Source: Tubiluchus corallicola (Eukaryota; Priapulida; Priapulimorpha; Priapulimorphida; Tubiluchidae). From it: a DNA stretch of 64,000 bases. The notes under the pieces were generated by a model that saw only the letters and a list, made by a program, of their open reading frames with translations, ran no database searches and was not told the DNA's origin. The stretch spans positions 62,001-126,000 of the forward strand of contig JAQGDQ010000108.1 in NCBI GenBank assembly GCA_030141605.1, read 5' to 3'. Every line of letters begins with the position of its first letter. Positions within the stretch are counted from its first letter, which is position 1. The translations under genes and the position numbers were made by a program. Positions 935 to 61,517 of the stretch are shown here, in pieces.

Positions 935-3900
935 GGTCACGTTGTATCAGCATTTGAACAGAGCTTATCCAATATGACCACACGATTACAACAACTGACA
1001 ATGACTGCAGAGATAAAGGTAATGTTACTATTTTTCCTTTGTGAAATTGTCATATCTTCTAACTACTTTTGTTTTTCTGCCTTCTGGCATAATTGTTTGC
1101 AATTACCAATAGCAACGCCAATCCTGTGTATCTCTGCCTGAATAATAGATTTTATATTACATTTAGTACTTTCCGTGTGTATGTGTGATAGTTGGGATTT
1201 ACGTTTTTCTCACCTTTTACCATTAAAAACATATATTCTGCAGCTACATGCGTCTCTTACTGTCAGCAAATTGTTTTCTGTCGTGTAGAAACACGATTTT
1301 ACAGTAATCACAAAAAGTGCGTGCATCCAAATCTATTTTAAGATGGTTTCAAAACTTTGATTTTGTGCTATTGCCTCAATGTAATCTGGGAGCTTCTTTA
1401 GATTTTCCTTAGGAGTTTTTAGAAAAACATATAAGTATATTTTGCTTATTTGTATGGGCTAATATGTTTGATGAGTTCCTGTGGGCTTGCATGGTTTGTA
1501 TAATCTTGTGTTCTGTCCTGCATAAAGCAGAGTTCTAACCCCCAGGCTATTTGGGGAGGAGGGGTGTGGAATGTTTGAGCATCCCTTCTCTTCACATGTT
1601 TCATTAGTGTGGTTGAATCCTGAGCTTATTTTGAAAATGTTTTGAAAACATTTGTGGCATTTTGATGCCAAGAGAACAGAAACATTCAAACTGTGACTTT
1701 CTTGTTCCCGGCTAAGCTGCCTAAATGATATGCAAATAATAGAAGCTCTGCGTGCTCAGCAAAATTGGTCAGCTAAGAAAAAAGTCAAATAATAATTTGC
1801 AAGGTTAGAAAATGCCTCTGCACTTACAAAGTTTCTTGCAATAAGTTGCACAACAAAAAGAAATGTGTCTTTTTTTACTGCCTTTTTTAACTGTTTTTTA
1901 ACTTTTTATTACTGTCTTTTTAGTACAAATTGTACACTTGGTCTTTCATGCTTTGTATTTGTATCATTTTTGTAACCAGAGGTCAGTTTCATAGCAGTGT
2001 AGAATGTCCAAAGGTTGTAAAATAAATATGTTTAAACTAACAAAAAGAAATATAATTTTTTTTTTTAGATTTTGGGGTTTTGCTTGTGAAATGTCGGAAT
2101 CATACTTACAGAAATTAATTTTCTTTTTATTACATAGGACTGTGAATTGAACAAACTACGGCGCACTATCGAAGAGCTGAAGCGCAATTCCAACTCGTCA
2201 GGAGGTGAAGATTTTTCTCGAAGAAGTACTAATCCTGACTGTAAGTATACACGTTTGCACTTCTTGTATTGATCCCCTTCCATGCACCAAAACTGTTCGA
2301 GATTTGTAATTTTGTTTTAATTCTGAAAATATTTCCATTCTGTTTGCTGTTTTGCTTCACAAAATGTGATTTATATTTCGCATTTTTGCTGACAGGTTTT
2401 ATTTGACTGCTACTGAATTAATCTCATAAGCTTTGTTGCAATGTAATTTATTTATGTTGTGTAGGCATGTCAGAAGGGAGGATGAGCAGGCAACGGTCAG
2501 TGGACAGTGTTCACAGTATTTCTAGTGCTTGTAGTAACAGCAGCCATCAGTCAGAATCAGATAGTAATAAGTCGAAAAAGAAGAAGAACTGGGTGAGTTT
2601 TTCATTAGCAGCACTAGGGATTTTTAATAAACAGCTAAAAATTTTAACTTTATGTAGTATCGCAAATTTGGGAATTAAATTTTATTTCTTAAAGTTTTAG
2701 TCTTTTCAGTACGGTCCTTATGAATCTTGATGAATTCTGCAAACAATTTGCATCAAAATTAGCTTTCGTTTGAAGGTAATCTTACAATGCACTAATTTAA
2801 TTTCAGTTACGGAGTTCATTTAACAAAGTCGTCAGCAGAAGTAGAAGTAAAAGCAAGACACGAAATGGTTCTTCTTCCGACGTTGAAGGCGACACCCACA
2901 GCATTTCTAGTAACCGCTCCGTTCCAAATTCTCCATTGCTCAGCAGTGACAAAACACTTAAGCTGTCTCAGTCATCTTCTGCGTAAGTTTTGTTTTGTTA
3001 ATATTTATTTAATAAACATTTGTACATTCTTGTATTATCTATCTTAATTTTGTATTTAACTACTATGTTGTATTTTCTTCGTTCAGTTTGTTTGATCCAA
3101 ATGATGGTGAAGATGTTCGAGATCTGAAGAAGCAGTTACGGGATAAAGAAATGAAGTTGACAGACATCCGTCTAGAAGCACTTTCATCGGCCCACCAGTT
3201 AGAGCAGCTCCGCGAGCAAGTTCACAAGATGAGAGTAAGTTATCAGTTAGATTGTACATTTACACTTGGATTGAAATATATTGCCAAAAACAAGATTACA
3301 AATTTACTGCAAGATAGCTTGCTGTCACGAATTAGTTCCATACTGTGAACCATCGAACGCACTTGTTTGCACTTGCATTTCTGGTGATACCTACTTTTCA
3401 GAAACAACAGAGTAACCAATTCCAAGAAAATCGTATATTCTGGGCTAAACAAACTACTAAATTTACAAACAAATAAAATAATTAATATTACTGTGAAGGC
3501 ATTTGAGCTGGTTCAAAAGACTGATACTTGTTCAATGTTTCTCGCACTTTCGTTAAAATAATTACAGCCAAGCCTTCATGTATTTTGTGTATTTCATGTA
3601 TTTTATATGAATATGCATTTTTTCTACTGCTGCTTTTCAAATAAATGAGATTTTATTTAATTTCGCAATTCCAGTTTATTTTATTAAAATGCAAGTTGAG
3701 GAAAAAAAATTTTTTATTTAGGAGGAGATGAAATCTTTACGGTCTCAGAACGAAGAGCTAGTAAAAACATCTAGTAGACCTAGTTCCATGTCCGGCTCAC
3801 AGGTGTCTCTTGGCAAACGCAGCAGTGCTGATTCGACTGATCATCCGCTTAGTTTGTCTGATGTTGGGTCAAACCATGGTGGTAGTTTAGGTAACTATTG

Positions 3901-6900
3901 TTAACTCTTTAAAAGTGGAATATTATCAAGTTAAATGTAATTATTGCATTGATGTATTGGTATAAATAATTATTTAAGTGAACAATGTTTCGCTTAACAG
4001 AATTAATGTGTTTCTTTTTTATTGTAGATATGTTATTGTGTGATGGTGGCAGCACTGAGCAAAAGGAGGGAAGGAGAATAACCGTTTCCGTCTGTCTTTT
4101 TCCACAAGGCAATTTTGCTGAGTGGCAAAAGAGCGGGTCTAAATCAGAGTCATTGATTGGTGCTATATTTGTGAGTGGCAAAACAAAATGGGACATTTTA
4201 GATGTTGCTGTTAGAAAACTGTTTAAGGTACACTAATTTTTTTGTCTATATATTTTACATTTTGTATATATAAAGTTATTGTTTTGCTGTATTTACCTAT
4301 CTTGTTGTATATTTAAAAAAAGCTAAGCTTAACTGTGTTGTAAGAAAAGTAAAAACCTTCTCAAATTCATGATTATTCTATTTAAAAAACATTTTATTAA
4401 GGTGACCACTTCATTTTGAAATTTGTGCCAGTTCCTCTGATTGTTTGCACTAGTGTTGACGAATATGCTCATCTGTTTGCTTGCATGTGAAAACAACGTG
4501 AAAACAAGTTCTATTAATGTTTGTCCAATCGCCAATCAAATGCCACTAAGGCGACTGAGCCTATGAAATTTCGATGTGTACATCATTTTTGTGGTTTTTC
4601 ATGTCGTACAACCATTCGAAATTACCACTGGATTTGGTTTTTGATTTAATACGGGTATAAATTAAAATAGGGAACATTGCAAGACTTGTTTCAAGAATGG
4701 CTGTATTTTGTTGTAAATGGAGTTACTGTTGTCGTGAACGTATGTTTGTTTATCATTAGGAATATGTGCTGAGGGTCGATCCTGTTGCTAATCTTGGCCT
4801 CACCACCGATAGCATACATTGCTACAATATAGGTGAAGTGAGTCGTTGTCGAGATACAGATATGCCTGAGCTGTTGCCCTGTGGATATCTCGTAGGAGAA
4901 AATATGCAAATACAAATAACACTCAAAGGTCAGTCACCAACTCAAGTTTTTCTGGTTGTCTATTATGGCTTGTTCTATGTTTATTGAGAATGCAACAAAA
5001 TTCTAAAAAGTAAGCTAACTAGCGATTTTATTAAGAACATGCTTTCTTTTTCAGGAACAGAGCAACAGTGTGTAGATGCTTTGGCATGCGAAACACTCAT
5101 ACCTAAGTCTATCGTACAGCGTTACATATCGCTCTTAATGGAGCACAGACGGATCATCTTATGTGGACCCAGCGGAACCGGCAAAAGCTATCTTGCTCAG
5201 AAACTTGCAGAGTTTCTTGTGTTAAAGTATGTTTAGGACATTGACAGATTTTGGACTAACCAAAACAGTATTTTGTCTAGTTTAGATTGCCAAATTATTT
5301 TTGTTTCCAAGTTGCTTAATTGACTCTGTTATCATATTGTTTTGGTCTCGCTTACTTAAGACAGACTTACCATTCAAGACTGCCTTGCTTACTTTGAATT
5401 GCTGTTGATAAACATCAGGCAATATTTGATCGATCCTGCTTTACTTTGGTTGCTCATATTACACAGGCAATATGCAGCTGAATGGATATTATGGCGGCTA
5501 TTTGTGAGTTGAGACTCATTCAGTCTTAAGTTTGGTGATTAAAACAGCTTATTCCTGCAATGTTTGTCTTCTTTTCTGCAGATGGTGCCAATTTTAAAGT
5601 TGAACATAAATTAGCCTTTAACTATAATATCTACATTACAGGTCTGGCCGAGTTCTAAAGCAAGGCGTCATAGCAACATTTAGCGTGGACAATAAATCCA
5701 GTAAAGAATTACGCCAGTACTTGTCCAGTATTGCTGACCAGTGTGAGGAAGCTGAGAATGCCGGCCTGCCAAGTGTGATTATTTTGGACAATCTGCACCA
5801 CGTTGGCTCTTTGGGCGAGGTAGGCCTCGATCACTTCTATAACGTGCACTTGGCTATGTTTAAACTTTAGTCTGCTTGCTTTCATTTGTTTACATTATGC
5901 TTTTCAATTGATAGTACCTTTATATTGCTTTCATTTTCTATTTATAGGTGTTCAATGGCTTTCTCAACTGCAAATATCAAAATTGCCCGTACATTATTGG
6001 TACAATGAACCAGGCAACATGTTCAACAACTAATCTGCAGCTTCATCATAATTTTAGGTGAGGTCCAAGTTTTATATGCAGTTTTTTATGGTCACCAGAA
6101 GTTTATATGTGCCTGAAATATGTAAGTGAATTGAACAAGCAAATAAAGTTAATCATTTGATGAATGTTTTTGTGTAAACTGCCTAGACATGCCAGTTATA
6201 CATTACAAGACAGATAGTACTGTTTTTCAAAACTGTAGTACAAAATTATGCTGTTATAGTATAACAGACAAATTTGGAAACTTCTTATTTTACTTTTTCA
6301 TGTATTTTTATTTAAGGTAATTAATCACTGTAATTTTACACTCTCAAAATTGTTTGTTTTGTTGATGAGAACAATTTGTTATTTTTGTTGTCGCTTTCAA
6401 TAATTATTATTAATAGAGTTATTGCTTATTACTGTTTAGCCACATGCGTTAAAGCTTGTAGTTGGAAACACTAAAACCTTCTCATGTAACTATGTCACAT
6501 TATTACACGTGGCATTAATGCTTGTGAAAGGTAGTGAAAAGGGTTTTATAACTCATATCCATTTGTGTGAAACTTGACACGAATCCTATATTTTAAATTA
6601 CATAGTTTTACGACATGGAATATGCAAAACCTGTTTCACAAAACGCACAGAGCGCATACTGTAATAAGCATTTTCATTTCATTTACCGTATCGGGCTGTT
6701 TGCTGTTGCAGATGGGTGTTGTGCGCCAATCACATGGAGCCTGTAAAGGGTTTTCTTGGTCGCTACTTGCAGCGACGTCTGGTGGAAGTAGAGATAAGCT
6801 CAAACTCTGTAAATGAAGGAATGGTGAAGATTGCTGCCTGGCTTCCTAAAGTTTGGATACATCTTAACAAGTTTCTAGAAACACATAGTTCATCAGATGT

Positions 6901-8310
6901 TACCATCGGTGAGAAAAATTTCAACTACACATACAGTTAGTTTCATCTGTACCTATAAAAATACAGAACTTGATGTTACACATTGTCATTATTTGAAAAT
7001 GATGAATTATTGACTAAATGAACTTGCAGTTAATAATAATTATTTAACAAACCCGCAGTTACTAACAGCTGTTGCAGTTATAGTTTTAGTAATTGTGATT
7101 TCCTGTATTAATAGAAAATATCGTCCATGTCAGCTAATGTTACCTAGCTTTTTAAATGCATGATTTTTTTAATAGGACCTCGATTGTTTCTTTCGTGTCC
7201 AATGGATGTCGCTGGCTCACAAGTTTGGTTTACTGATTTATGGAATTACTCTATAGTGCCCTATTTGCTTGAAGCAGTGAAAGAAGGACTGCAGGTAGGC
7301 ACCTCGTTAACAGGGGTCACTGTTTGTTTCCATATAAAAATGTTTATTCAAATTTTGCAGGAATTTCACTTTACTTCAATCACTATAGTGCGAAATTTGT
7401 GTACAATGATTTTTGCGTGGTATTGCATTTATAATCATTGTTACTCTAATACGTAAATTTTTTTGTTTCAAGTTGTATGGACGACGTGCACCATGGGAAG
7501 ATCCTACTGAATGGGTTCGGAAATCGTATCCATGGGTGAACATCAACAACGACCCAGATTGGCCAAGTTTGCTTAGACTCCGGCCTGAGGATGTAGGATT
7601 TGATGGAACCAATCAAGGAGTTGGGACCAGCAAGACTGCACCGGGGACCATGAGTGACGTTGAAGCTGACCCTCTGGTATTCATGCTTTAACTTCTTTTG
7701 CTTCCCGTTTTGCATGCGTGTTTTGCTAATGAATATGTAGCTTAATGTTCAACAGATGGAAGGAGGTCTTTATCATGTGAGTCAGAATGTTAGTCCAATG
7801 TTAGTTTAGTCAATTTTCTCAAAGAACTTCAATGTTGATGGATTTTAACCACAAACTGAATGGTACACTGCACCAACATGGCATGGACTGTATGGGAATA
7901 TCAATTGTATGTCATTATTTCATTTGTAGAATATTATTTACATAATTTATAATTAAAGAATCGGTATCAAAGTCAAAATTGAAAGGTTGAGCTTTGAATC
8001 TGGCACTTCTTCACTTTTGTCCTCTTGTTAAGTCTTTCAGAAATTTAGCCATGATTGTACATGAACCTCAGGCAATAATTTGCACACCACACAGTTGAAA
8101 TCACTGTGACAATTTTCACTTTTGCGTATTTTTATATATATGAGCTTACTGCTTTCGCGTTTTTTTTATATATTTCCGATTTTGTTATAGTTGAACATGT
8201 TGATGAGACTCCAAGAAGCGGCCAGCTACTCCAGTCCGCAAAGTCAAGACAGTGATTCTGTTAGCCTGGACAGCCACAGTAGTGGCATCCACGATAGCGA
8301 GCATGCTTAA
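935..8310 (+). CDS. NAV: Neuron navigator (NAV/unc-53 family), C-terminal 758 residues, 5' end outside window
   Basis: Fifteen exons join with matching phases: 935-1018, 2138-2240, 2465-2592, 2807-2982, 3087-3234, 3722-3890, 4028-4227, 4760-4928, 5055-5226, 5642-5819, 5948-6057, 6712-6908, 7176-7294, 7473-7676 and 8191-8310 (stop TAA). Together they are 2277 nt. In order the product shows a coiled-coil start (AFEQSLSNMTTRLQQL), a Ser/Lys-rich linker with LRSSFNK, a second coiled coil (KEMKLTDIRLEAL), then an AAA-type P-loop domain with Walker A GPSGTGKS at fragment residues about 430-437 and a Walker B-like VIILDN. It ends with the NAV hallmarks FLSCP, WFTDLWN, PWEDPTEWV and MLMRLQEAASY. Navigators are cytoskeleton-associated proteins acting in axon guidance and cell migration. 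The Walker B acidic pair is altered (LDN). The N-terminal region, including any calponin-homology domain, lies off the window. It is a single-copy homologue of vertebrate NAV1-3; which one is closest cannot be told. Confidence 0.95.
7756..7776 (+). other. Candidate 21-nt in-frame microexon of the navigator gene
   Basis: Between the last two exons lies AACAG, then 21 nt encoding MEGGLYH, then GTGAGT. Both flanking exons are in phase 0, so inclusion would add seven residues without breaking the frame. A TGCATG motif (RBFOX-type) sits about 40 nt upstream at 7711-7716. The acceptor tract is weak, and vertebrate navigators join the flanking segments directly, so this would be an alternative exon. 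Confidence 0.35.
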
Positions 8311-9855
8311 AGCTCCTCGATGAGCTAGCCAAATCGAAATTTCTGAGATGTTGGGATCATCTTCTGGTCTTCTCAAATATATCGAATGGGCATTTGAGAA
8401 TGTATCAGAGCAGGTAGTTTCAAGGTGATCGGGAGCAAAATGTCACTCGTTCTTGTATGTCGAACTGAGGTGGTTCCACAGTTGGTCTTTTGTGCGGATT
8501 TCACCTATTTAAACATTTACCATCTACATTTGCTGCAATGTAACAGTGGAGTGAGTTACCAACAATTACTGATCAAATCATTTGCTAAACAATGCAATGT
8601 ATTGAAGCACAAAAGTGCTATTTGATAATTATTTTAAGTAGTGATTTCATTGAATGATTTGACAATGCAACATTATACACTGCCGCCTATTGTTTGCTTG
8701 TATTGTATGTGCTTAAGTAGCTTTGAATCTATCGCATATGTTTGTAATTTTGCCATTGACTTACTGCCCACAATGTGTTTAGCTGATAGTGTTTTTTGTA
8801 TACTGATTGGCTACTTGTTTTGTTAGTTATTTATATTGATGTGCTGCAAGGTACGTTTTTGGCACCAGTATTTGCATTAATTATTAATGCTTTTTTAATA
8901 ATGTACAAAGTTATTTAATACTGTGCGTGACGATTCTTGTGAAGTAGGTAGATTAAGTTTTGTACAAAATTTGCATTTTCTAGTTTTTGTTATATCGTAT
9001 AATTTATTAATTACAAAGCGCTGGGCCGGCTATTTTTGCCCGTAAGTATTTATCATATTGTGTTAATTACGGTGATTTTACATGTTTTAAGTTTGACACA
9101 TTTTTTCTGTTTAGTTGTATAGAAGGTTGCATTATGTGTTTTGTTACATAGCTGATGTTATGTTTCTGCACACCTGTCGGTTAATGTTAACTAATCGGAG
9201 CAAGTGTTAAGCTGGAGTTCAGAGCAATAACGATATGTTCATAGAAAAGCTTCCACTGAAACAGCTAGTGGTTTGTCATAGAGCTAGGATTGACAAAACT
9301 AAGCAAAGTAATATTAAAAATAAAAGTTATTATATTTTACTAACTTTCTAGTCCAGAGACTGTCTATGATGACTATTTTGTTATGTAAACAATTACATAG
9401 TATTCCTGGTTAATTTAATGTTGTGTTCCTATAGAGCAGCTAATATTGTAGTGTAGGTAGAATAATTGTGCCTTGCCTAAAATAGGATTGTTATAGTTGT
9501 GTATTACTGTAATGTGCTTGGCGTGCATACCTAATTTGTTACATAATTATTACTCATGTTTTACCTGTGAAGAATTTTAATGAAAACTGTTTAGTGGCAA
9601 ATAACTTTGCCAGTTTTGTGTTCAAGAGTACAGGAATAAGTGTGAAGTGTGTTGTTTGCGTACATAATTATTATAATCATGTTTTCACACATAGAAACTG
9701 AATGTATGCAGTAGATAGTGTTGTGACGCTGTGCCCATATAATTTTGAAATTTTTATCTACTTTTATATTGTAAATAAGTATATGTTATGTACATGTACC
9801 GTCAAAACACTTCTACTCGATTCATTTGTAAATAAATTTTCAATGTAAAATGTCA
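8311..9855 (+). other. 3'UTR of the navigator gene
   Basis: After the stop there is no other reading frame of note for about 1.5 kb, up to an AATAAA followed by a GT-rich stretch. Two exact Pumilio-type TGTAAATA sites occur at 9770-9777 and 9827-9834, just before the cleavage region. The extent is inferred from the poly(A) signal. Confidence 0.6.
9831..9836 (+). terminator. Poly(A) signal of the navigator gene
   Basis: AATAAA is followed about 25 nt later by the GT-rich stretch cttgtgttttatgtg. It is the best placed canonical signal downstream of the navigator stop codon. Confidence 0.6.
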
Positions 9856-10002
9856 CATTTTATGCATCTTGTGTTTTATGTGAACCGTAGTGAAGCTAGT
9901 TAACAGCATTTATAATTAAATTTAGATGATAATGACGATGATTACGATTAAGATGATGACTTTAAATTAAGAGAATAAAAATATGTAAAAAACACTACAT
10001 TG

Positions 10003-10296
10003 CAAAATATATATGCACAATGTTCAATATAATTTTAATATTATCATCTTGCCTATTAGTGTCATTGTTGTGGTACTAGTAATTTCAGTCAATGAAACAA
10101 TGATATCATTTAGATAATGAATTCCTAATCCCCAATATATTCCTAATCCCCAATATTCCGAATTCCCAATATATCAAAATATATATGCACAATGTTTAAT
10201 ATAATTTTAATATTATCATCTTGCCTATTGGTGTCATTGTTATGGTACTAGTAATTTCAGTCAATGAAACAATGATATCATTTAGGTAATGAATTC
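10003..10296. repeat. 122-bp direct duplication separated by 50 bp
   Basis: 10003-10124 and 10175-10296 are nearly identical. The 50-bp spacer itself repeats cctaatccccaatat-type units. The duplication lies in the intergenic space between the navigator and the neurotrophin gene. Confidence 0.85.
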
Positions 10297-11480
10297 AAAT
10301 GTGCAAAACATGGATTGTAAACTAACACTAATACTAAAATTTATAATCAATTAGTAAGAAATCCAGAGCAAACCAGTAAGAAATGCCCGAATACCAAATG
10401 ATTTTGATGTACTTTAACTGCAAAATTATTGCACGTCAACAGTGACATGCGTTCTGTTCATGTTAACAGTGGTTTATACCCAGATTTTGTTCTTTTTGTG
10501 CAAATTTTTGAAGTAATTTTTTATTATACGAAACCATGTCATCTTTACTTAGTTTATTAAGTTTTTATATTTTACTGGCCTTAATATTGGTTTAGTCGTC
10601 ATTTGAAAATTGATAAACTAGTAAGTGAGGCTTTTAGTTATTTGCAAGTTGCTATAGTATGTGAAATGGATACAAAACACCAGTTTAACATGTTTACCAA
10701 AAGTTTCTTTGTTCTGAAAGACAATTATTAATATTTAGCTTAACTTACATTGAATAGCAGAAAATTAGTTGCATGATTAAATGTATTGCTATAACTAAGT
10801 ACTGATATAAATATTATGTAAACTATATTGAAATTAATTAACAATAACTTACGTTGTTAGAGCCTTTAACAGTTACAAAGACAGGAATGAGAACTGCAAG
10901 TAGCCTTAAGAACAACATTGTCACAACAATAAATTCGTAAAAAATTTACAGTCATTATGCTCATCACAGACAGAAAAATAGAGCAATGGCGGGGAGAACC
11001 AAAACACGGGTAAAATGTCATACAACTACTACAGCTATAGCTCACGAAAGGCCAAAATGCTAATGTATTCAAGGATATTAGGTGCTTCTATTTTAAAAGA
11101 GTGACTACTGTAAAAGGTAAAAAGCCCACTAAATGAACAAACAGGTGGCAGTAATTGAAAACTAAATTAAACCAAAAAAGGGCCTATGCACCCGCTACAG
11201 TATGTGTTGCTATAGTTTCAGTAATATGTGACCTGGCGGAAAAATAATACGAACGCCCACTATATTGGTACCCATCTGTTATGTTAATAAGATTTTTGCG
11301 TGACACTAATTAACGTCATACGCAGACATAATTATATATTTATAACGCTGACCTAATAATCGATACACGTAACTGATAAATGTTGTCATGAGTATGTACG
11401 TAAGTGACCAGGAGATTCACGTCACAAAAGTGATTCGGCTGAGCTACCGGATTTATTCACATTGCGATGAGCAGGCGCAG
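10297..11480. other. Intergenic, AT-rich
   Basis: No gene, RNA or repeat was recognised between the duplication and the promoter-like region at 11481. Confidence 0.5.
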
Positions 11481-11570
11481 CCAATGACCAATTCATGCGT
11501 AATTTTCCACATGTGGCTCTCGCCTTCGGGCTTTATAATGCGAATGTTTGTGTGTGACCATCAGTAGTTA
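11481..11570 (+). promoter_or_regulatory. Likely core promoter of the neurotrophin gene (CCAAT, TATA, Inr)
   Basis: CCAAT occurs at 11481-11485 and 11488-11492. A TATAA sits at 11534-11538 in a locally GC-richer stretch, and an initiator-like CCATCAGT follows near 11559-11566, about 29 nt after the TATA. A palindromic E-box (CCACATGTGG) lies between. The spacing matches a TATA promoter, and the first ATG with a signal peptide follows at 11740. Confidence 0.5.
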
Positions 11571-11739
11571 CAACAAACTTGTATAAAACACCAGCAGAAT
11601 AGCAAATTTAGCGTAATATTAACAGTACACTTGTACTTTATCCATTACTGCATTCTATTATTTTAACTAAGTAATATATAAACAATTATTGCAGTTTCTA
11701 CATGATTTGTAATACAAAGTATATTTTAAGTGTCTAGTG

Positions 11740-11821
11740 ATGAAAAGAAAATTAATTGATTTGGTGTCCATATGTTGTATAGAGCTATGCCTAATGTCAG
11801 TCGTGAATTCCACATCGTACG
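11740..11821 (+). CDS. Neurotrophin exon 1: signal peptide exon
   Basis: The ATG opens 27 codons plus one base, followed by GTAAGT. The encoded basic-then-hydrophobic segment looks like a signal peptide. Its overhanging G completes GCC with the first bases of the exon at 17594, and the downstream exon has no ATG start of its own. The 5.8-kb intron this implies holds another gene on the opposite strand. Confidence 0.65.
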
Positions 11822-14800
11822 GTAAGTTGATTATTTTCTCACTAAATTATATTATTAGATAAGTATTCCTTATTACATATCCTCTCATAAGACCATAATT
11901 ACATACCACGTGATATATCAAGTAAGTTAAAACGGAAATTTTTCATTAAAGCAACAAAAAATGTATACTGATGATCATTACAAACAATAATAGTGGAAGT
12001 TTCAGTAATATGTCTACACAAAACGGATCTGCTCCGAAACCGATATGGACCGAATCTTGAGTCCGATTTATCATTGAATTCGTAATTATAGGGTAAATCC
12101 GTAAAAACTAACTTACCCCAAAAAAAACTTTCGAAGTTGGTAACATTTTTTAAAAGATTCTCTAGTCGTTTGGATACTGCAAAACGATTTAGAAACACAA
12201 GTGTTGGCAAGATCATTGAACCTTATGGTCGAGTGGTTAATGCAACGGCCTTGGGCGCATAGTCTGCTTACAACTCGAGTTCGAATCTTACGACTACGTG
12301 TAACGGCACAAACTTCATACACTTAAAAATTACTTATTACTTATTAGTTATTAGTTAATAAAATAATATGCTGAATGCAAGTGAAAGCCACATTAAGGCA
12401 GCAAGAGTCATATTGGTTGCCAGAAACCGTGTGGCTCCTCTATTCAGCATTGCAAACACTCTCACAGGAGCACCAGAACCATCTCTGATATTCATTGGTA
12501 TGGCAAATATTGTGCTTCCTACTGGCGGCATCTGGTCCAAGTTTGTCAGAAGGTCAATAATGCCAATGCTGTGCTCTGCCTGGATCAGCTGATGAACCCT
12601 AAATGTGGGATCAGTGCCAGGATCCAATCCAACGTCAGATCCGAACAACTTGATTCGTCTATTTTCAATCAGCCATCTGACTGCTCCAACGTCAATTCCC
12701 GGAACGTGCCATATTCCTTTGTCATCCAGGCCAAAGACGACCTTCCAATCATCACCACCTCTGTGCCTACCTGCAATAAATGCTCATTGTATTATTAAGT
12801 ACTCAAACATTTAAGATAGATATGTTGAAACAAAGCGCTGAAAATTCGGTTGAGTCATTAATGGACAAAAACCATGCAATGATGGTAGAGATGTTTTTAA
12901 ACTTAAGGTCTTGCAGGCCATAGATCCACCCATCCACCATTCCACTTGCACAAGACGTTCCAATGCTTTTCGCAGGCGCTATGCGAACGTTTGTTTATAC
13001 TTTGTGTTCGAACATTATTAGAAAAACGATTGGTTGAGTTCTGTAACACGCTGATATCGCGGGAGAAGGGGCTCCTACGAAATCTAAATAGACCTGTTAC
13101 ACCTAAGACCCTTCCACGCACCTATGCACTTTCGAGCTGATATTTTAAACATACAAACTTGTCTCAAGCCACGCCAACAGATAGTGAGAAACCACACTAA
13201 AAGCTGCAGTTTTGTTGCGTTTTTTTCTCAACACATTGTTACATTTCTGAACTAACAAAACGTAAACCATTAAACCGTACCTGTATTTAAGAAAAATATG
13301 CTTCCGTCTGGTATTCTTCCGTATTCTTCTTCCCACTTATTGATGTCGTTCATTGTTGCAATATAGTCAGGATCTTCTTCCCCTTTGGCCGTTATGTCCA
13401 ACATCACCCCATTTCCAATCAGCTCGGTAAGAGGCATATCGCCAATTGTTCTCTCGCCTTCTTTGAAATGCATTGGAGCATCCAGGTGAGTTCCCGTGTG
13501 GTCAACTAGACACATCTTGTTCGTCTGATAATAAACTCCATGCTCACTTGTTTCTTTATAATGCACGCTCATGTTGAATGGTGGGTGTGAAGGAAGTGGT
13601 ATGGTTATCATGTTGTTGTGATATAGGCGTGTCAAGTCAATTATTTTTCGATGTTCATCTGCACATACTTGAACGAAAAAAAAGATTGTAATAGTTAGCA
13701 CAACGAAACAAAACCTAGCCTCCATGGTAGGGTAGCAGAAACCAACTGCCTTTTCTTAGTAGAAAATTCTCCGAATAGTTTTAGTTTTATCCAGCGTAGC
13801 CGTCATTTACCACTAGGCCAAGGTTTGTTATTGTAAGATATGTTGCTTATACAACCGGCTTCCTAATGCAGAGCCAGTTTACACAACGTAACTCATTGTG
13901 ACACTAGTATGTTGGCGAGTTATGTGTCTTGAAGAAAACTTTCGCGAATAGCAGTAAATCACAAAATTAGAATCTGCACAAGTAATCACGATGTTTAATT
14001 TACTGAAATCTGCAGTAATTTCAAAATCAAAAAATATAAAATATCATGACCGGTCTAAACATCTAAGTCGCACTTATTCTATTGAACACTTTTTTCTTCA
14101 CTTCGGTAGCCAGTCAACAGGTTGGACTGTCAATTAGTCAGTTAGTTACTCGGTCGATCAATACTATGTGCAGTTGGGCCTTACTACAGTCAAGCGTTAT
14201 TTTAACAACCCTACCTGGCGCCACAGGGGATGTGTGCGGTAGAAGGTGTGATCATGGCGTGTGCTTAGTGACCGAAATTAAGCACACTGAGTCTAGTTAG
14301 TACGTGAATGGATGGGTCCCTGCTTAGAAAGTTGCCTTTGCGATTTTTTCTACGGTAATGCCCCGGCTATTTACCTTATGGGGGATGATGTATGTATACT
14401 ATCCCAACGTCTCCTCCACAACCCTGTCGGTTCTCATGAGAGAATTGTCCTTAATAATTACATTCGTTCCTGTCTTGCCTGAAACATGGACATTAGATAG
14501 ACATTGATGCCGGTTAACGAATATCAGAGGTTAACTAACGATTTCCCATATTGAGTAACAATTTTAATACCGGCTAATATATTTCTCTGGTTATAATTTT
14601 AGACAGTAAAAAGAGGCAGCTACAGTCGTCTATATTACGATGATGTTGCAGTGGTTGCACACAATGCTATGAGCACATTTACAAGATGTAATAGACAGAC
14701 TTGTCATAAAAAGATTCTTGGATAACCAATTAATGCATGAGAGTTGCGCGGGTGTTATTATTTTATTGCGTCAATTCCACAATGACGTCATCAGCTAAAT

Positions 14801-17800
14801 TACCTTGCACGCATGCAACTTCTATCTTTCGTGATTAGTGCTTTAAAATGCCGTTAACCTGGTTTTTTAATCAACAACGAGAAAATATTATTAACTATCT
14901 TAGCGTGCATTATTAACAACAATTCTTTACGTCTTTACATTACTGCCTTCTCTTTATTACTTCCGTTACATACATTCGTTAGGATGAATAATTTTCGATA
15001 GATTATGCGTTAAGTTAATCACACGTCAGCGTTAAATATTTAATGCCACAGACAGCTCGACGGATTATGAGATTATTATAGACTAAGAGAATGTATTAAG
15101 ACTCTAAAATGAAGTGTGATTTGTATCACGGAGTGTTGTGTTTAAAATATTATGGCATTTGTACCAGAAATTACTTTCTAGTATTTTCATTTTCGCAGAT
15201 AATAACTTCAGTGAGCAATAGAGCAGTCCTTAATTATATTAAAAACCGTTTCTGCATTTAAAAAAGATGTTTTCACTGTAAGCAATTTACAACAATGATT
15301 ATCTAAGCCATCTTCTTCAAAATTCCTCTGACGTTAATGCATATGCTTATTATTATATTACTTGTTATCCAAAATTTCAATTATTGCCCAAAAACACGTA
15401 AACATTTTGATTGCTTGCTAAAGGTCAGCCATTAATATTAAGTATTAATAAGCTCACGTTATTACGCTAAACCTCTAAATGAGAGATTACTATACTGTAA
15501 TAGTTCTATAGAATACAGGTGTTGCAGCCTTTCATGTCATAATGCGTGTAACGCAAAAGTTTTGTATGGAATGTCGCCAAAAGTGAATACCTATATGACG
15601 GTCTTCGTTGTGGAAGCCAATGTTATGGCTCCCGAGGTCGTTTGCGGCTGCTTTTTTACAACATACAATTAGCCAAACATTAGAAAAGTTATTTATACCC
15701 AAATAAAATAAAAATGAGGGGAGAAGGCAAGCCCTTATATTCTACTTTCATGTGAGCCAATATAAAATACATGTAGATGTCATTGAAAAAAAGAAAAAAA
15801 TAGTAGCGAACATATTTTTTAAACGTTATTATACGTTTCACAAAAAGGGAAGATGCAACTAATTTTTGCCCCTTTCTCACACAAACGTTATCTTTTTAAG
15901 CATTTTTAGTTTGTTAAAATTTTGATTATTTGTCCCTTAGATATCTCACACAAACGTTATCTTTTTAAGCATTTTCAGTTTGTTAAAATTTTGATTATTT
16001 GTCCCTTAACATCTCACACAAACGTTATTTTTTTAAGCATTTTTTAGATTGTTAAAATTTTGTTTACTTGCCCCTTAGATATCTCACACAAACGTTATCT
16101 TTTTAAGCATTTTTTAGTTTGTTAAAATTTTGATTATTTTTTTCATTTAACACTTAAAAAAGTATTCCACAATCTAGCTCATAACAAAATATAATAGATT
16201 AAACATAATTTTTAGATTAGTTTAGCCCGCGCACAAGGCGTTAAAAAAATCTCTCCCTTGTCTATACTGTTTATTAAAGCATAATCAACTTAGAAAAAAT
16301 TCTGAACATTAGGCAGAAGAGTTTACTATTTTTGGGTACACCTGTCCTCTTGTTTATCTTCAATCTAACTAAAATTTGAGCCGTTCTGAACATTTGATTA
16401 TCACACGAAACTCTCTTTGTTGCTTTTTCATTATAATTCGACTAATTTTATTCACCACTCGGATAAAAATTAGCAAGACGAATGTAAAAGCAATTTGTCA
16501 TAAGCAACCTGTTTTCTAAATAAGCCGGGCCAAACCAAATGCTGACAGTTAGGCGTTTGTTAAGGTTCATTATGAAACAAAAAGAGAGACAACCCAGACA
16601 TTTAATAGATTGGCCTGGGACAAGCAAGACATGAGGCAGACCAACCACTGACAAGTCCAGACTGAGCTGGAGCCAGACTCGCATTTATAACAGAAAAAAG
16701 CAAATCCTAGATGTGAAAAGACCCATGCACAGATCATGACCAAACCTGCGCTAGTTTGATACATAATGCATCATTTTTCTTGCATAACGGTTGCTACATA
16801 ATTACGTAAAATTTATTACAAAATGCCAAATTTTCTGGTTTGTTGCATAATGCTGCGTTGTTGCATAATGACCATGTTTGCTACGTTATTATGAAACCAT
16901 TATTATTATTATTATGTTTATTTACGTAATGTATTATTAACATGACAACGTTTTTAATAATTTTTAAAACAGCAATAATGCCCAACGCATTTTTGTATTC
17001 AGTAACAACAGTTGCTGGTTTATTTTCTGCTATTTGTGTTGTTCGTATTTTTGTAAAATATGTATTGTTGGTGTAGCTTGGTGTTGCTGGTGTGTAAGAA
17101 ATAGCTGAAAATATTGATTTACAAAGATTGGCTCAACGTCTACTATTTAGTGTCATTTCATTACGCTCTCGGATGTATAATGACTAAATACCTGTTACGT
17201 TGCTCGTATAATAAGATCTATTTATGTAATTTCATAACAATAAGTGAAAGTTGATTGTTTCCTACATAAGCCCATCAACTCTAGGCACCTATATCATATT
17301 TCGTTTCCCTTCACGGGTTATTTGTTAATGCTTTATTAATAGCACGGTTTGTTTTAGCATTACATGTTAAGTGAATTATTATATCAAATTAGCCGTGTTC
17401 ACATTAACGGATTTCTTTTTGTATTCAACGGAAAGTAGGAAGTTTTTGTCTAATACAAAGTAGTGCAAAATATTATATTATATATTATATATATTATATA
17501 TAAAATATTATACTAACGTAGTATGAATTAAAAATAATTTTTTTGTTTTAGTATTTTAGTACATAATATATTAATTGTTATTTTGTTTTTTAGCCGTAAC
17601 AGTCTTGGAAAAGGCGATGAGACATTTTCCGGCTCAAGAAAACGCAATTAAGTTCAACGATATTCAAGAGCAACTATTTTACCCATACAATGGCCGCATG
17701 GTGACGAAGTCAGAGCAAGTAACCAATGTTTTGAAGCCATTGCAAGCAGAATTTGCATATGTTCGCTGTCCGCAATGTTCTAAAGTAGCCGAAAAACTAA

Positions 17801-17969
17801 CAAAGACGAACGAGGATGACAAAAGCGTCTTAAAGCGCTTGTGGCAAGTAAGTAGCCATTTTCATGATAACACTTAAGTGATAAAATAATAAAATAAGTG
17901 ATAAAATAAGTGATAATAGCGATGATGATGTGATGTGGTGCTGATGATGATGATAATGATGATGACGAC

Positions 17970-18017
<48 letters not shown>

Positions 18018-18729
18018 ATGATGACGATGATGAACGATGACGACGACTACAATGACAATATATAACATGTTAAACTGCGTTACGCCGAAAGTAATGGTTT
18101 CTAGATAACACAGATTTATTAGCAAGAATAATCGTCTCATTTACTTGAGAAATTATATATTTTATTTAATGCTGTTCACTTCTGCAGGCATTCAATGTAG
18201 ATGTAGACGCAGAACCTGTCTTTTCGAACAAACACTGGCAAATACTTTCCAAGTTCTCAACTCGCTTAAACAGCAAATTTCGGCAGACAGCTGATACGGA
18301 GAAACTTATTAGACGTACGGATGATAATAAGTCAGTAGATGACAAAAGGACTTCAAACACTGATCACATAAATTTTGGTAAGCGAGCATGGTTGCCTGAA
18401 GACGTGTGTGAGACTAGAAGTGGTTGGTTACATGTGACTAATTCAACTGACATCAAGGGTCATGTGGTTACGGTGGTTCAGCCACCAGATAGTCGCCAAC
18501 AGTGGTTCTACGCCACCTGGTGTTCTGATGCGAGTGAAGGAATGCCCTGCTTGGGGATAGACCAAACAAGGTAAGTGATGCTGAACCAAAAAAAAGATCA
18601 AAATTGCGTTTCTTATCTTCGTTAAACTTTTTTATCACAACAATCATGCCAAAATTTTGTATCCGTCGGTCTTGTATTTATTCAATAAATATTTTCCCAA
18701 CTAAAACAGCAGGTCTTAGAGCAAAGGGA

Positions 18730-18800
<71 letters not shown>

Positions 18801-19159
18801 GTAGAGTTGTGCTAAAATTTCAAAAGTTAGGATAAACCAAAATGCAAGAAAGTGTAGTGCGTACATGAACCACTGGAGCATTCTTTGGGCAAGGGCAGCT
18901 ATTATAATTACATTGAGGCAAATGAGTTTAATCAAAGTGGTCAGACTGACTAAATAAATTTCTTAATTTTTGAAGGTATATGTCTCGATGCGAAACACAG
19001 ACTGGTTACGTGATGGCTTATGTGACACGTACCGAAGATGCACAATCAACAGCCGAGTGGAAATACATAGAAATTCCTACAAGTTGTAGTTGTGGCATAG
19101 CTTTGGTGCCAAGTGAAACAAGAAAGCGACAATTTTACGGTCATTTTTCCAATGACTGA
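11740..19159 (+). CDS. Pre-pro-neurotrophin (NGF/BDNF family), 300 aa
   Basis: Exons 11740-11821, 17594-17847, 18188-18570 and 18976-19159 give 903 nt with phases 1, 0 and 2 closing exactly. Exon 1 encodes a signal peptide (MKRKLIDLVSICCIELCL...). A prodomain follows, with a CPQC pair in exon 2. A dibasic KR at residues 177-178 precedes a mature region with exactly six cysteines at residues 186, 224, 233, 245, 277 and 279. The last two form the C-x-C of the neurotrophin cystine knot. TDIKG, GID and W-K-Y-I-E-I match conserved neurotrophin strands, and the Cys3-Cys4 spacing (12) equals that of NGF. Cys1-Cys2 is shorter (38 against 43) and Cys4-Cys5 longer (32 against 28). The likely role is a secreted Trk/p75-type ligand. 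Spätzle-type knots are the alternative, but TDIKG and the spacing favour neurotrophin. Exon 1 is inferred from phase and signal peptide. Confidence 0.87.
12215..12354 (+). repeat. tRNA-derived SINE-like sequence or tRNA pseudogene
   Basis: TGGTCGAGTGGTTAATGC resembles an A box and GAGTTCGAATCTTACG a B box of Ser/Leu-type tRNAs, at roughly tRNA spacing (about 12228-12296). The anticodon arm does not fold cleanly. A tail of TTACTTATTA-type repeats runs right up to the stop codon of the gene at 12355. This suggests an old tRNA-headed SINE rather than a working tRNA. Confidence 0.55.
12355..13725 (-). CDS. Secreted cyclase / kynurenine-formamidase-like metal hydrolase, 286 aa
   Basis: Two exons on the minus strand, 13725-13281 and 12770-12355, joined in phase 1 (861 nt, TAA). 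Residues 1-22 form a signal peptide (MEARFCFVVLTITIFFFVQVC). The body matches the cyclase superfamily (Pfam PF04199: bacterial KynB, isatin hydrolase), with the metal-binding signature HTGTHLDAPMHF, then IDLTRLYHNNMITIPLP near the N-terminus and the late SDVGLDPG and VFAMLN strands. The last 22 or so residues are hydrophobic after small residues and end at the stop, like a GPI-anchor signal or a tail anchor. Family members hydrolyse amides or lactams such as N-formylkynurenine or isatin; the substrate here is unknown. The gene lies wholly inside intron 1 of the neurotrophin gene, in the opposite direction. Confidence 0.92.
13740..15870. other. Intronic sequence, no gene recognised
   Basis: This lies within the large neurotrophin intron and upstream of the cyclase-like gene. 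It should include that gene's promoter (minus strand, just above 13725), but no clear TATA or CCAAT was identified. No convincing coding exon was found on either strand. Confidence 0.5.
15875..16140. repeat. Minisatellite, four copies of a ~69-bp unit
   Basis: Copies start at 15875, 15944, 16012 and 16082, each opening with tctcacacaaacgttat and containing gtttgttaaaattttgatta. Periods of 69, 68 and 70 with scattered substitutions indicate an old tandem array in the neurotrophin intron. Confidence 0.9.
17921..18050. repeat. (GAT)n microsatellite
   Basis: GAT/GAC trinucleotides run with few interruptions in neurotrophin intron 2, about 75 nt after the donor at 17848. Confidence 0.95.
18722..18799. 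repeat. (GA)n microsatellite
   Basis: An almost pure GA dinucleotide run in neurotrophin intron 3. The apparent Arg-Glu and Leu-Ser reading frames over it are artefacts of the repeat. Confidence 0.97.
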
Positions 19160-28200: not shown

Positions 28201-29266
28201 ACGTTGTTGATGAGCCACTTGCCAAATGTTTTGGTACTTTAAAGCCGGCAAGGTTAAATACGGATTGTATCATGTCAGCATTAATACTGTGTTGGCTCAC
28301 ACTGAAATAGAGAACTTTCAGTAGGCCAAAATGACAAACACGTACAAGGCACCAACAATTCGTAATGGCTGTCCATGTATATACATATAGTGAAAGCATA
28401 CATAAGCACGTAGCGATAAATCATTTGCTGAAATTTACACTAGATACACGTAGGCACAGATACTTCTTTAGTGTAAATTACAACTTTTGATTTAATGCTA
28501 CGTGCTAACGTGTGATTTCACTATAAAGCTAAATGCTGAAATAATAATATAACTTTCACACAGTTCGAACTTTCTTAGCGTATACTGATTACTAATAATT
28601 ACTTTTTCGCTAGTTGTTGGTGCTTTCCATCTGCAGAGATGAGGGACATGTAGTATTTTTGGTTTTCGTGAAAACAGGCATTACATAGAATTTACAATAT
28701 TATAATTATTATTATGCTCTTTATCTTCTCCACTAATTCAATGACCGATTGATAGCGAAGCTTTTTTGGTGAAACAAAGTGCTGATATATATTACTAACA
28801 CATTCCACAGATTTTACTTGGTCATTGTTTTATTTTTTCTACTTAAGCCGTAATTCTCCAGAAAAAGATTATACAAAAACCTGTAGATCAAAACGTCCTA
28901 TAAATAAATGAATACCTTGGTGAAGTGTTAACTTCTATCAACCATGGCTTTAGGTTGTGGTCCAACATAATGTCAAATCCGTATAATTCGTGACAACCAG
29001 AAGGACTATTTAGGTATGTACTGGTGAGATCATAAATGTTAGATTCTGCACTGCAAAATAATTTGAGATTTACTTCGGAATTTTGGGACTGATGTGAAAA
29101 CTCAAAGCAACAAACAATTATAAGGAAATAAATTAAAGCATTTAATTATATACTAACTACGTCTAATATTTAAAGACTTATTTATTTTTTATTTTCTTAA
29201 AATTATTTTAACTAAGGCAACATGCATCTAACGTGCAAAAAATTGAAGTTTCTGAAAATAAGAGCG

Positions 29267-29312
<46 letters not shown>

Positions 29313-30426
29313 AAATTAAAATTTAAAATGACTATCCGGAAGTATTTAATTTGCTTCGAATGGTGGTCATAACGTCACCCTGTAGTACTGATGTCACAAA
29401 TATTTCGTAATTACGTCTTTGTAGAATTGAAAAGCCAATGGCTTATCAGTTTCTACTAATTCTCTTGTTTACCCATTAACTGCATGGACAAATGAAGTGA
29501 AATCAGCCCAATTTACACGCAAGTGTAGATGAACGCTCCTTAAGAATTAATTGCAATTAACACACAAGCTTTTCAAAATCTTCTACTAAAGTATGTGCTA
29601 GAGGCTATTTATATAATTTGATCAACTGCAAATCGAACTTGGGAGCCAAAGATTCAGCGAATTTTACACTGGGCAATAGTTCTAAGTGTATAAACACCCC
29701 TGCATAAGAACTCTAAAAATATTTTAATAATTGTTCAATAAGGCTTGGTCATGTACAGGTATATCATGGAAATTTGAAGATCCCGAGGGTAATGAAAAAC
29801 TGGTTTACCTGATAATCTGTTTCATAACAAGATCCTTTATCTTATCCCAGATGACATCCATGGGAATACCTTTGGATTCCAGGTATCGCCACATTGTTTG
29901 AAGATGCCTGAAAGAAAAGAACACATCTCAAAACACATTTAGAGCAGGAAACAGTCTTAATCTTCTTTGAAAAGAATGTATAGAGACCTTGGTTTTTCAA
30001 TTTTTATTCACCGCACAAATCAGAGCACGATTTTTCAGGAAGCAGGTAACGTACACAGACAAAATCGGGAAGAAAAGGTTAAAGAAGACCTTGAAGAAGC
30101 AGGAGAGTCTAGTTATGTTTATTGCAGATATTGGCTGGGCAAAATTCTAAGCGATTCACTTAATTGTATATTGTTGCCAGCCATGCACTGGTTGACATAA
30201 TTTCTTTTCCCGACTCTTAGTATGTCAAAGTTCGCTTAAACTATATATAGAGAAAGATTTCCTCCCACGAATATTCTGTTTGGTATCACACACGCCACAC
30301 ATCCTAATATGCAGAAATTCCAGAAATACTTTCGCCAGTCAAAGCCATTTTGCTTTTAGCATTATAGAGAGAGAGATAGGGGGAGGGAGAGAAGAAACAA
30401 GAAGGGGGGTTAGAGAGACGGAGAGG

Positions 30427-30457
<31 letters not shown>

Positions 30458-33187
30458 CGAGAAAGAAGGAGAGAGAGAAGAGGAAAGAGTGACTGTAAGT
30501 ACTTTTTTGTAGTATTATCGTTTAATCTGCAAATCAAGAACAGCATACATAAAGATTGAGTCTAATAAGTCGAAACAAAATATTGTGTAGCAAAAAATAC
30601 TCAAATGCAAAATACATAGTGAATGCTAATTAAATAGTAAAAATGTAACCTAAAGTATTACAGCACATTTTCTGACGTGTGAATGCAAATTTAGACGTTC
30701 AAAAGAGGAGTGGTGTAATTTTCTTAATTACTTACACCATAGCAGCAAATAGTTGGCTCAAAGATGAAATACATGTAGCACTAAGACAAGAAAAAATACA
30801 AATATTTGGCAAACATAATAGCGCCTTAATTCACATATTAAGCTTTGCGACGTTAGTGACTTCGCTCACACCTTTTACCTGCCTTATACTACTGCCACCT
30901 GGTGCTTGAAATTCAGGAAACATCCTCACAGCGACAGAGAAAGATGGAAAAAAAATTGGAAGTGACAATTTTAATGCAGGTTTAACTTGTGGTGCATGAT
31001 GACCAGGAATTTAGCCAAATGGTTAGGCGGAGAGGGGCAGTGTATGAGCGAACGATAAAATTAATACAACATATTACAGGCCTATGTCAAGTTATTATGG
31101 TTTTCTAATCTCTAATAAGAATTTTACTGTTGTTAGTACCATTTATGCGCAGATTCTTCTCCAATGTTTGCAAATCTCTGTTTATATATGGGACTGCCCT
31201 TATTGATGTCAATATTAGTAAGATGCATAAAGACGTCATGTAGTTTATCAGCGTCGGTGTTATATCTGAAAGCAAAAAGTGAAATTCTATAATATTTATA
31301 ATTATTTTAGTGCGTAATATGTAATTGCAAGAAAAACGCGAAATATCATGTCATTTTTGCTTGCTATATAAAGAAAGTTTTTTTATCGCCTGTTCTACTA
31401 TTGAGTGTGTCAACTATTGGTTGCTGCAGAGGACGAAGCTCTGTTGTGAATGCAAGAAACTCCAAAACACAGTGTTTGCAATAGATCAAGCCATGACATA
31501 TTAAACAAAGTTGGTGAGTATAAATTCACCCAGTGAAATAACAGAAGTAATAGAGAAAATGAGTGGTACAAATTCAACCAACTCCATGTTGAAAAACCGA
31601 TAGGATCTGTTACAAATGACAAACATTTCATTCGAGTTTCCATAACGCAATGCATCACAATAATCTATTCTATACAATGACAAGTACAGAAAGATTTTGA
31701 TCGAACTACCCCATATGACCTATCACTATTATTAAGAAGTACATACATAAAGCTACATTAACAGTGGATACATAATTAGGGGTGGACAGTAACCGAAAAA
31801 TTCCAACATCATACTCGGTTACGAAAAGAAATGTTATAATCTTAATAATAAGAGAGACATAAAGAGAGGCAAGGTACGGTACGGTACAACAAAAAAGCTG
31901 AAAACTACGATACGGAATTAGAGTACGGTATTTTTCAAAAGTACGGTACGATACGGAATACGGCATTTTTCTCGTACTTTTTCCGTACCTTTATCGAACC
32001 TTTTCCGTACCTCAGCAGCACACGCAAACAAAATGGCTAGATTGGTTTGTCTTGGGTGCAAAAGCGACAACAGCTGTTTAGTAGCCCCAGTTGTCGTTTA
32101 CCGTAAACTGCGTTTATTGTTATTCGTAAACCTGGCAGATTATTTCCCATGTTTGCTACCTATTGTTTTGAAAAAAAACAATGTGTCGTTTAGAGCTTTT
32201 CATGCCACAGTATGTAGATCCCAAGTGCACTTGATACGGGATTACGATACCATATTTTACTGTATTAGTACGGTACAGTATTTTTAAAGGTACGAAATAC
32301 GTTATTTTTTCGTACCGTACCGTACTGATAGACTTGAGTGGAGGTGGTGGTCAAACAACAACGCAACAAGACGTCAACCCGGCTGGAAGAGTGATTGTGG
32401 ATGAACGCAGCCACATGGAACGTGTTGGTTGGTTACTTCCCATTGTTCCGCAACACGGCGAATGTTACATCCAACACGCCATAAAATTGCTTACAACTTC
32501 GCCGTAAGCACCATTTATGGAAAAATAAAAATGCAATGGCGTAGGTTAAATCAATACAGATAAAGAAACAAATCAGCAAAGCAAACAAACTGTAAAAGAA
32601 GTTCTTACTTTTTTGTCGCAAACTTCGCTGCACCACCAGTGTGCATATAAATTCGCAGTGGTTCCATTGACGGCACATACACATATATTCGAAAATCAAA
32701 CTTACGCCCTTCGATAAGAAATGGCTTCGATAGGTACCTAAGCAATAAAAGTGCTTTATTTTACTATTTGCCATAACGTAATGATTATAAACAATTATAC
32801 CATAACGTGTGCACGTAATGTAGGGCTTACTCTGCTAATGGGCAAATACGTCTTGTGCAAAATAGGTAAACTACTCGACTTAATGTTAGTGCATAAAAAC
32901 CACATGTATTAAAACAAAAATAGAATAGCATACAATAAATGTACTTGCACGAGCACACCAATTACTAAAACGATAACGGCAATGACAAAGCTGAAACAGC
33001 ACAATTACTGCACTCACGGGTAGACTCATATAATTTTACGCGTCATCAAATAAGCACAAATTAATGACATACAATAATATAAGTAAGAAATACTTTAAAG
33101 CACGTTGAAAAATGTATGATTATATATACGTAAGTATATATGCGCTTATCTGATGTGTAGACTTTTATATGTGAATCTGATTATGTG

Positions 33188-33233
<46 letters not shown>

Positions 33234-36200: not shown

Positions 36201-36763
36201 TAATTAAATTAGTCATTATTATGTTATGTACAGGTTGCCACAGAAGTCATTATACATTATACATTTACATTTGTTAAAAACGTGAAGCATAATGTTTAAA
36301 AATGGGGACAGAGGTACGACATCTTTACAGAACGAAAATCGAAACTGCAGCATTGGCAGTTTCTACATGCGTACCACTTTTTTCAAAGCATTTCAGCTAA
36401 CGATTGACTAACGCATTTTAAGCATCAGCAATTCAAGTAAAACGCTTGCACAACAACCTCTAATTAATATACCAAACTCTTGAAGAAGTCTTAGTCTTGT
36501 GGCATAAACGTTTTCCTCTCTGAAGCTCATCATAATAATGCCGGCTCGGTTAACTTGGTTTTGATACCAAAATAATTCCGAGAGACTGTTTTTGATTCGT
36601 GCCCTATTTTGCCGAAATTGTAGGAAAATTTGCAAAGATAAAGAAAATTTATCTTTTCGTATAGTTACATTTGAGACACTTACATAACATGTATCATCAT
36701 CGTCGTCGTCGTCGTCGTCATCATCGTCATCATCATCATCAACATCATCATCATCGTCATCAA

Positions 36764-50122: not shown

Positions 50123-61517
<11,395 letters not shown>

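Follow-up and report, generated by a model that had tools for sequence, protein, structure and literature searches.

Neurotrophins (NTs) are secreted as precursors that are cleaved ahead of a cystine-knot domain, which dimerises and binds Trk- or p75-type receptors, and navigators (NAVs) are cytoskeletal proteins of growing neurites. In the sea urchin, an intronless, vertebrate-like NT coexists with a multi-exon gene, Sp-NT2, whose intron arrangement differs from that of Daphnia (PMC2772990). Sp-NT2 and the acorn worm genes NTa and NTb represent a second type of NT in invertebrate deuterostomes, in which an Asn replaces mammalian Asp30, a position whose importance is described in the same paper (PMC2772990). 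A protostome, Capitella, likewise has a second, chordate-like NT (NT1 and NT2; PMC4812194, where the word ‘exon’ is absent from the main text), and two NT types may therefore predate the deuterostomes. In vertebrates, four paralogous sets of genes surround NGF, BDNF, NTF3 and NTF4, forming a paralogon on human chromosomes 1, 11, 12 and 19 to which 227 gene families are common (PMC3280201). Here we describe a stretch of 64,000 nucleotides from the priapulid Tubiluchus corallicola (contig C1717, positions 62001-126000; hereafter, the window) in which the 3' end of a NAV gene is followed by a multi-exon NT gene, and we compare it with a second contig of the same assembly, C2252, which carries an intronless NT close to a MyoD-family gene.

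A navigator gene followed by a multi-exon neurotrophin gene

The window opens with the 3' part of a NAV gene on the forward strand (935..8310), for which a phase-consistent splice model gave 15 exons (935-1018, 2138-2240, 2465-2592, 2807-2982, 3087-3234, 3722-3890, 4028-4227, 4760-4928, 5055-5226, 5642-5819, 5948-6057, 6712-6908, 7176-7294, 7473-7676 and 8191-8310, with the stop codon at 8308-8310). Once spliced, these form a single open frame with AG/GT borders; 72 phase-consistent variants were retained, and the model reported is the one closest to the expected borders. The C-terminal 422 residues match the Pfam families AAA_lid_NAV1 (PF25408, E 2.8e-48, 162.9 bits against a cut-off of 27) and Ubiquitin_6 (NAV1-like; PF23092, E 1.6e-16), as well as an AAA domain. 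It is this combination of a NAV-type AAA+ domain with its lid that marks the gene as a navigator, and its product is predicted to be a cytoskeletal AAA protein. The gene probably extends 5' beyond the start of the window, and the upstream part of C1717 contains open reading frames (ORFs) that score as coding, four of which were compared with Pfam and had no match. Across the assembly, the NAV lid family was found in the window gene and in one divergent relative only (six candidates scored). This relative, at C34:155326-155535, reached 45.6 bits with the lid family (cut-off 27).

On the same strand, the NAV stop codon is followed by an NT gene with a predicted precursor of 300 amino acids (11740..19159), identified through its splice model, its Pfam family, a neurotrophin-3 (NT3) structure in the PDB and its cysteines. 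Its four coding exons (11740-11821, 17594-17847, 18188-18570 and 18976-19159) are separated by GT-AG introns. The protein matches the NGF cystine-knot family (PF00243) with an E value of 2.2e-16 and 60.4 bits (cut-off 27), and its closest solved relative is NT3 (E 6.5e-12, 48.1 bits; 35 identities over 96 aligned residues). The knot contains six cysteines (residues 186, 224, 233, 245, 277 and 279) that align with those of NT3 and NGF, and the knot is interrupted between Cys3 and Cys4 by the phase-2 intron that precedes the last exon (18571-18975; ACAAG/gtaag.../GTATATG). In the window NT, the stretch PCLGIDQTRYMSRC matches the NT consensus at every position except the first; the consensus is a vertebrate one, and the mismatch is no bar to membership of the NT family. 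By homology, the product is predicted to be the precursor of a secreted cystine-knot ligand. Predicted exon 1 has a hydrophobic start and a KR lies at residue 177 ahead of the knot, and no R-x-K/R-R cleavage motif was found. The Spaetzle family was also considered for this protein and was rejected at 25.7 bits, below the 27-bit cut-off, and a scan of NCBIfam returned no matching family. The propeptide also contains a CxxC pair (RCPQC, encoded at 17761-17781), to which a stretch of two further contigs, C1822 and C2208, is weakly similar (MCLQC; tblastn E ~7.5).

A sequence-only reading of the window had placed the NT gene 3.4 kb beyond the NAV stop at 8310 and in the same orientation, and this arrangement is borne out by the gene models and domains, which match its end points (935, 8310, 11740 and 19159) to the base. 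Its description of the two genes as direct neighbours holds for the adjacency itself; the spacing, 3430 bases between the NAV stop and the NT start, depends on a predicted first exon, and an antisense cyclase-family gene lies within NT intron 1. The predicted exon (11740-11821, phase 1, signal-peptide-like) was the sole candidate on the forward strand of 8311-17593 (9.3 kb) to combine a hydrophobic N-terminus, phase 1 and a GT[AG]AG donor. The reverse strand also yielded one candidate, and a Markov null gave a mean of 0.285 candidates, and 21.5% of 200 trials produced one or more. The start at 11740 is thus to be taken as a prediction on which both the 3.4 kb spacing and direct adjacency depend; should the prediction fail, NAV and NT may have the cyclase gene between them.

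The adjacency might also have been created by a misjoin of the assembly between 8310 and 11740, a concern already raised in the sequence-only reading. The window contains no N, polyA signals (e.g. AATAAA at 9831) and TATA-like sites (e.g. at 11582) follow one another in the gap in a plausible order, and the GC content of 2-kb steps between 8 and 16 kb of the window stays within 0.31-0.40 throughout; each of these is weak evidence against a misjoin, which we consider very improbable.

An intronless neurotrophin beside a MyoD-family gene

The assembly comprises 343.5 Mb in 2344 contigs, among them C1717 (615,738 bp) and C2252 (711,201 bp). It contains at least five NT loci: the window gene, three other multi-exon genes on C1349, C1822 and C2208, which were recovered by a protein search of the assembly with the window NT, and the intronless gene on C2252. 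Because a PF00243 profile search of the assembly found the intronless gene only and overlooked all four multi-exon genes, these counts are lower bounds. The NTs on C1349, C1822 and C2208 share a phase-2 knot intron at a position identical to that in the window NT. In the knot they are 79-86% identical to one another and 57-59% identical to the window NT, and in the C1349 copy a Ser replaces the third knot cysteine. Only the window copy, one of the four multi-exon NTs, is adjoined by NAV.

These counts bear on whether the NAV adjacency arose by chance, through the spread of a multi-exon NT family in this lineage and the landing of one copy beside NAV. At least four such copies on four contigs, the close similarity of three of them, the presence of NAV near just one in four, and the occurrence at the locus of genes with no known relation to either (a cyclase, a tubulin-tyrosine-ligase-like gene and an ankyrin-repeat gene) would all fit such a history. 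However, the window NT is the divergent copy and hence not a very recent insert, and NAV and NT genes lie in the same human paralogon (PMC3280201, PMC9877351). By rough arithmetic that assumes 20,000-30,000 genes, chance would make two named genes neighbours in roughly one case in 10,000 across a whole genome, and tens of times more readily if both were confined to a single ancestral chromosome and one of the two was multi-copy. Overall, we think a chance landing unlikely.

The NT on C2252 (517876-518628) is a single open frame of 250 amino acids with no stop within it and an REKR site ahead of the knot (E 8.7e-23 in the Pfam profile search). The search of the assembly for the NAV lid family gave no match on this contig. 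A MyoD-family bHLH gene lies 6.4 kb further on and on the same strand (C2252:525043-525750; Myogenic Basic, PF01586, 1.5e-13), and its locus at C2252:525250-525528 was the only Myogenic-Basic match in the assembly search (three candidates scored). Scans of ORFs in flanks covering about 200 kb of the 1.3 Mb of C1717 and C2252 confirmed one ANF_receptor exon and, apart from the MyoD-family gene, recognised no gene of the paralogon. The intronless NT and the MyoD-family gene possibly represent an old micro-linkage of their own. Chromosomes 1, 11 and 12 carry the human MyoD-family genes, and 19 a ghost locus (PMC7530620), so that the MyoD-family locus shares four human chromosomes with the NTs, and here one of its members lies within a few kilobases of the intronless NT. 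In Branchiostoma floridae, scaffold 138 is among those homologous to the amphioxus scaffold that carries the MyoD-family gene (PMC7530620), and the intronless amphioxus NT is placed on scaffold V2_138 (PMC3280201). If the scaffold numbering is the same in both papers, this suggests that amphioxus, too, has an NT and a MyoD-family gene on one chromosome. MyoD, Myf5 and myogenin are absent from the main text of PMC3280201, as are ‘neurotrophin’ and ‘ntf’ from that of PMC7530620.

In build and in score, it is the intronless copy that more closely resembles vertebrate NTs. Its score with the NGF family is 86.4 bits, against 60.4 for the window NT, and its best score with a solved vertebrate NT is 60.5 bits, against 48.1. 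In addition, its single open frame corresponds to the one-coding-exon precursor typical of vertebrates, whereas the window NT has four coding exons. A comparison of the window NT with a set of 5.8 billion proteins returned 572 candidates, none with an E value of 0.01 or better, and a tree was therefore built without an invertebrate NT set, from the five NTs of the assembly with NT3 and NGF. In this unrooted tree of seven sequences, with no outgroup and no other invertebrate, the four multi-exon NTs split from the group of C2252, NT3 and NGF with a support of 98. Because of its one-exon build and its higher scores against vertebrate NTs, the intronless, MyoD-side copy is more likely than the NAV-side copy to be the vertebrate counterpart. 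The NT beside NAV, which the sequence-only reading had linked to the vertebrate genes, may thus be the wrong copy: that gene is multi-exon and one of at least four, and an intronless, higher-scoring NT lies on another contig.

The presence in one genome of a multi-exon precursor alongside an intronless, vertebrate-like NT recalls the sea urchin (PMC2772990). The window NT nonetheless departs from Sp-NT2 and the acorn worm genes as described there: it has an Asp at the mammalian Asp30 position (STDIKG, aligned with ATDIKG of NGF), as do the three related multi-exon NTs, where the deuterostome genes have Asn. Two further differences from Sp-NT2 are that there is no extra Cys next to Cys5 (SCSC, with six knot cysteines only) and that the genome studied here holds at least four multi-exon copies. 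A Pro directly precedes TSCSC in the window NT and not in the other three; it may, very tentatively, correspond to the Pro at alignment position 136 of NT2. Since the Asn and the extra Cys of NT2 are missing despite the multi-exon structure, we class the window gene as a multi-exon neurotrophin and not as an NT2.

A probable ancestral linkage of navigator, MyoD-family and neurotrophin genes

The sequence-only reading had pointed out that, in human, NAV1 and NGF share chromosome 1, NAV2 and BDNF 11p, and NAV3 and NTF3 chromosome 12; taking band 1q32.1 to lie within 200-210 Mb of chromosome 1, we find that these pairs agree with published positions. NAV1, NAV2 and NAV3 map to 1q32.1, 11p15.1 and 12q21.1 (PMC9877351), and the sets around NGF, BDNF and NTF3 cover, among other segments, human 1:111-115 and 200-210 Mb, 11:0-48 Mb and 12:0-124 Mb (PMC3280201, Table 1). 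The human NT and NAV copies thus fall inside the published boundaries of the tetra-paralogon of NTs and glycoprotein hormones, the NAV bands in three of its four sets, even though NAV1, NAV2 and ‘navigator’ are absent from the main text of that paper (PMC3280201). In light of this match, it is likely that NAV and NT share a chromosome ancestry that predates the vertebrate duplications.

The sequence-only reading had gone further, proposing that a tight NAV-NT pair existed in the bilaterian ancestor, was retained here and was multiplied in vertebrates, a history that would entail later separation of the two genes and intron loss in vertebrates. The adjacency in the window and the published paralogon common to NAV1/2/3 and NGF/BDNF/NTF3 (PMC3280201, PMC9877351) are what such a pair would leave behind, and the unrooted tree and the sequence identities are compatible with it. 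The chromosome match, though, is no argument for a tight pair, because such agreement is expected for every pair of genes descended from the same ancestral chromosome. Moreover, the vertebrate-like, higher-scoring, intronless NT lies on a contig without a NAV match, the NT beside NAV is one of four multi-exon copies, and the arrangement has been seen in one species only. A tight ancestral pair, multiplied by genome duplication, seems to us distinctly unlikely; of the earlier proposal, the shared chromosome ancestry is the likelier part. In the open-licence literature searched, we recognised no statement of NAV-neurotrophin linkage, and the tight pair is known here only.

The tight neighbours of vertebrate NTs in the paralogon are GPH-beta, KCNA and LIN7 (PMC3280201), and none of these was seen beside the window NT in a motif scan and family searches, both weak tests. 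No KCNA- or LIN7-like words turned up when the window was scanned for such motifs, itself a weak test, and a search of the assembly with PF00007 gave no match; control genomes gave none either, so that absence is not established. The same applies to the molluscan haemocyanin domain, for which neither the assembly nor the control genomes gave a match. COX1 was likewise not found in the assembly; of 14 control genomes, eight gave a match.

Taken together, we favour an explanation in which NAV, the MyoD-family gene and NT belonged to a single ancient linkage group, and in which vertebrate NTs derive from the copy on the MyoD side, with a probability of roughly 0.57. NAV, the MyoD-family gene and the neurotrophin would most likely have been located on one ancestral chromosome, corresponding to the human 1/11/12/19 paralogon; an early NT duplication would have produced a multi-exon and an intronless type; and the NAV adjacency would be either an old local arrangement or the outcome of local reshuffling within that chromosome. 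It is from the two adjacencies, NAV-NT and MyoD-NT, and from the gene structures, all of which are observed in the assembly, that we infer a shared chromosome, the succession of events, the intronless copy as vertebrate counterpart and the origin of the NAV adjacency. A more specific form, in which the ancestral bilaterian chromosome carried a multi-exon NT beside NAV and an intronless NT beside the MyoD-family gene, and vertebrates quadrupled only the MyoD-side copy, is tentative, and we would not expect it to hold in full.

Several points weigh against common linkage with a MyoD-side origin of vertebrate NTs. C1717 and C2252 are separate contigs, and a common chromosome in T. corallicola is not demonstrated; the comparison rests on one species' genome, with the tight NAV-NT pair known from no second species. 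For LIN7, a published neighbour of vertebrate NTs, L27 domains were sought and lie on C259, C539, C311 and C15 and on neither C1717 nor C2252, although amphioxus lin7 is likewise located elsewhere (PMC3280201). The tree comprises few sequences and lacks a root, and rooting on the C2252 branch would separate C2252 from the vertebrates. Plain identity fails to separate the copies: the C2252 NT is 38% identical to NT3 and NGF yet 36-38% identical to three multi-exon NTs, and the window NT is 35% identical to NT3 and NGF. The synteny of the amphioxus MyoD-family locus is significant to human chromosomes 11 and 12, marginal to 19 and absent for 1 (PMC7530620), and the amphioxus join of NT and MyoD-family gene assumes that scaffolds are numbered alike in PMC7530620 and PMC3280201. 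Finally, a single neurotrophin gene at the base of the bilaterians has been argued for (PMC7535936), and one NT is given for Branchiostoma (PMC10253963), both of which speak against two NT types of great age.

Neighbouring genes and use of position as a character

The cyclase-family gene nested antisense within NT intron 1 (11822-17593) did not appear in the sequence-only reading. It is a relative of isatin hydrolase and kynurenine formamidase on the reverse strand (12355..13725; PF04199, 1e-33), with two exons (13725-13281 and 12770-12355) that encode a complete protein of 286 amino acids in the model used; four acceptor variants give 278-290. Its nearest solved proteins are isatin hydrolases (isatin hydrolase A, E 3.6e-29), and in NCBIfam it had only a partial arylformamidase match, below the cut-off. 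The protein has a hydrophobic stretch at either end. The first gene recognised downstream of the NT is tubulin-tyrosine-ligase-like, with several exons on the reverse strand (28888..36203); PF03133 was matched in four of the five ORFs tested (best 1.8e-15). By resemblance it may reach down to 25295, where the ORF at 25295-25660 had no match in Pfam or the PDB. Further downstream is an ankyrin-repeat gene on the forward strand (50117..61517), with Ank families in five of six ORFs tested, to which we provisionally assign the ORF at 60519-61517. Between these two genes, at 41698-42333, is an ORF with a Psq-type helix-turn-helix, probably derived from a transposon, and a similar ORF is found at C1717:6800-7204. 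Scans of the window with Rfam and for tRNAs returned no matches. Nothing about the nested cyclase or the rest of the neighbourhood points to a functional cluster, nor is there any sign that NAV and NT are co-regulated or work together.

The interest of the two adjacencies therefore lies in what position may tell us about a family whose sequences are poor guides to descent. NT sequences diverge fast and their orthology among invertebrates is disputed, and the exact number of neurotrophin paralogues is unsettled (PMC4812194). Position beside the better conserved NAV and MyoD-family markers offers an independent character. If the more specific history outlined above were true, both adjacencies would be relics of very old NT micro-linkages, and NT orthology across phyla could be called by position. 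As it stands, this positional character suggests that it is the intronless, MyoD-linked NT, and not the NAV-linked NT, that is the counterpart of vertebrate neurotrophins, a proposition that is testable in chromosome-scale genomes.

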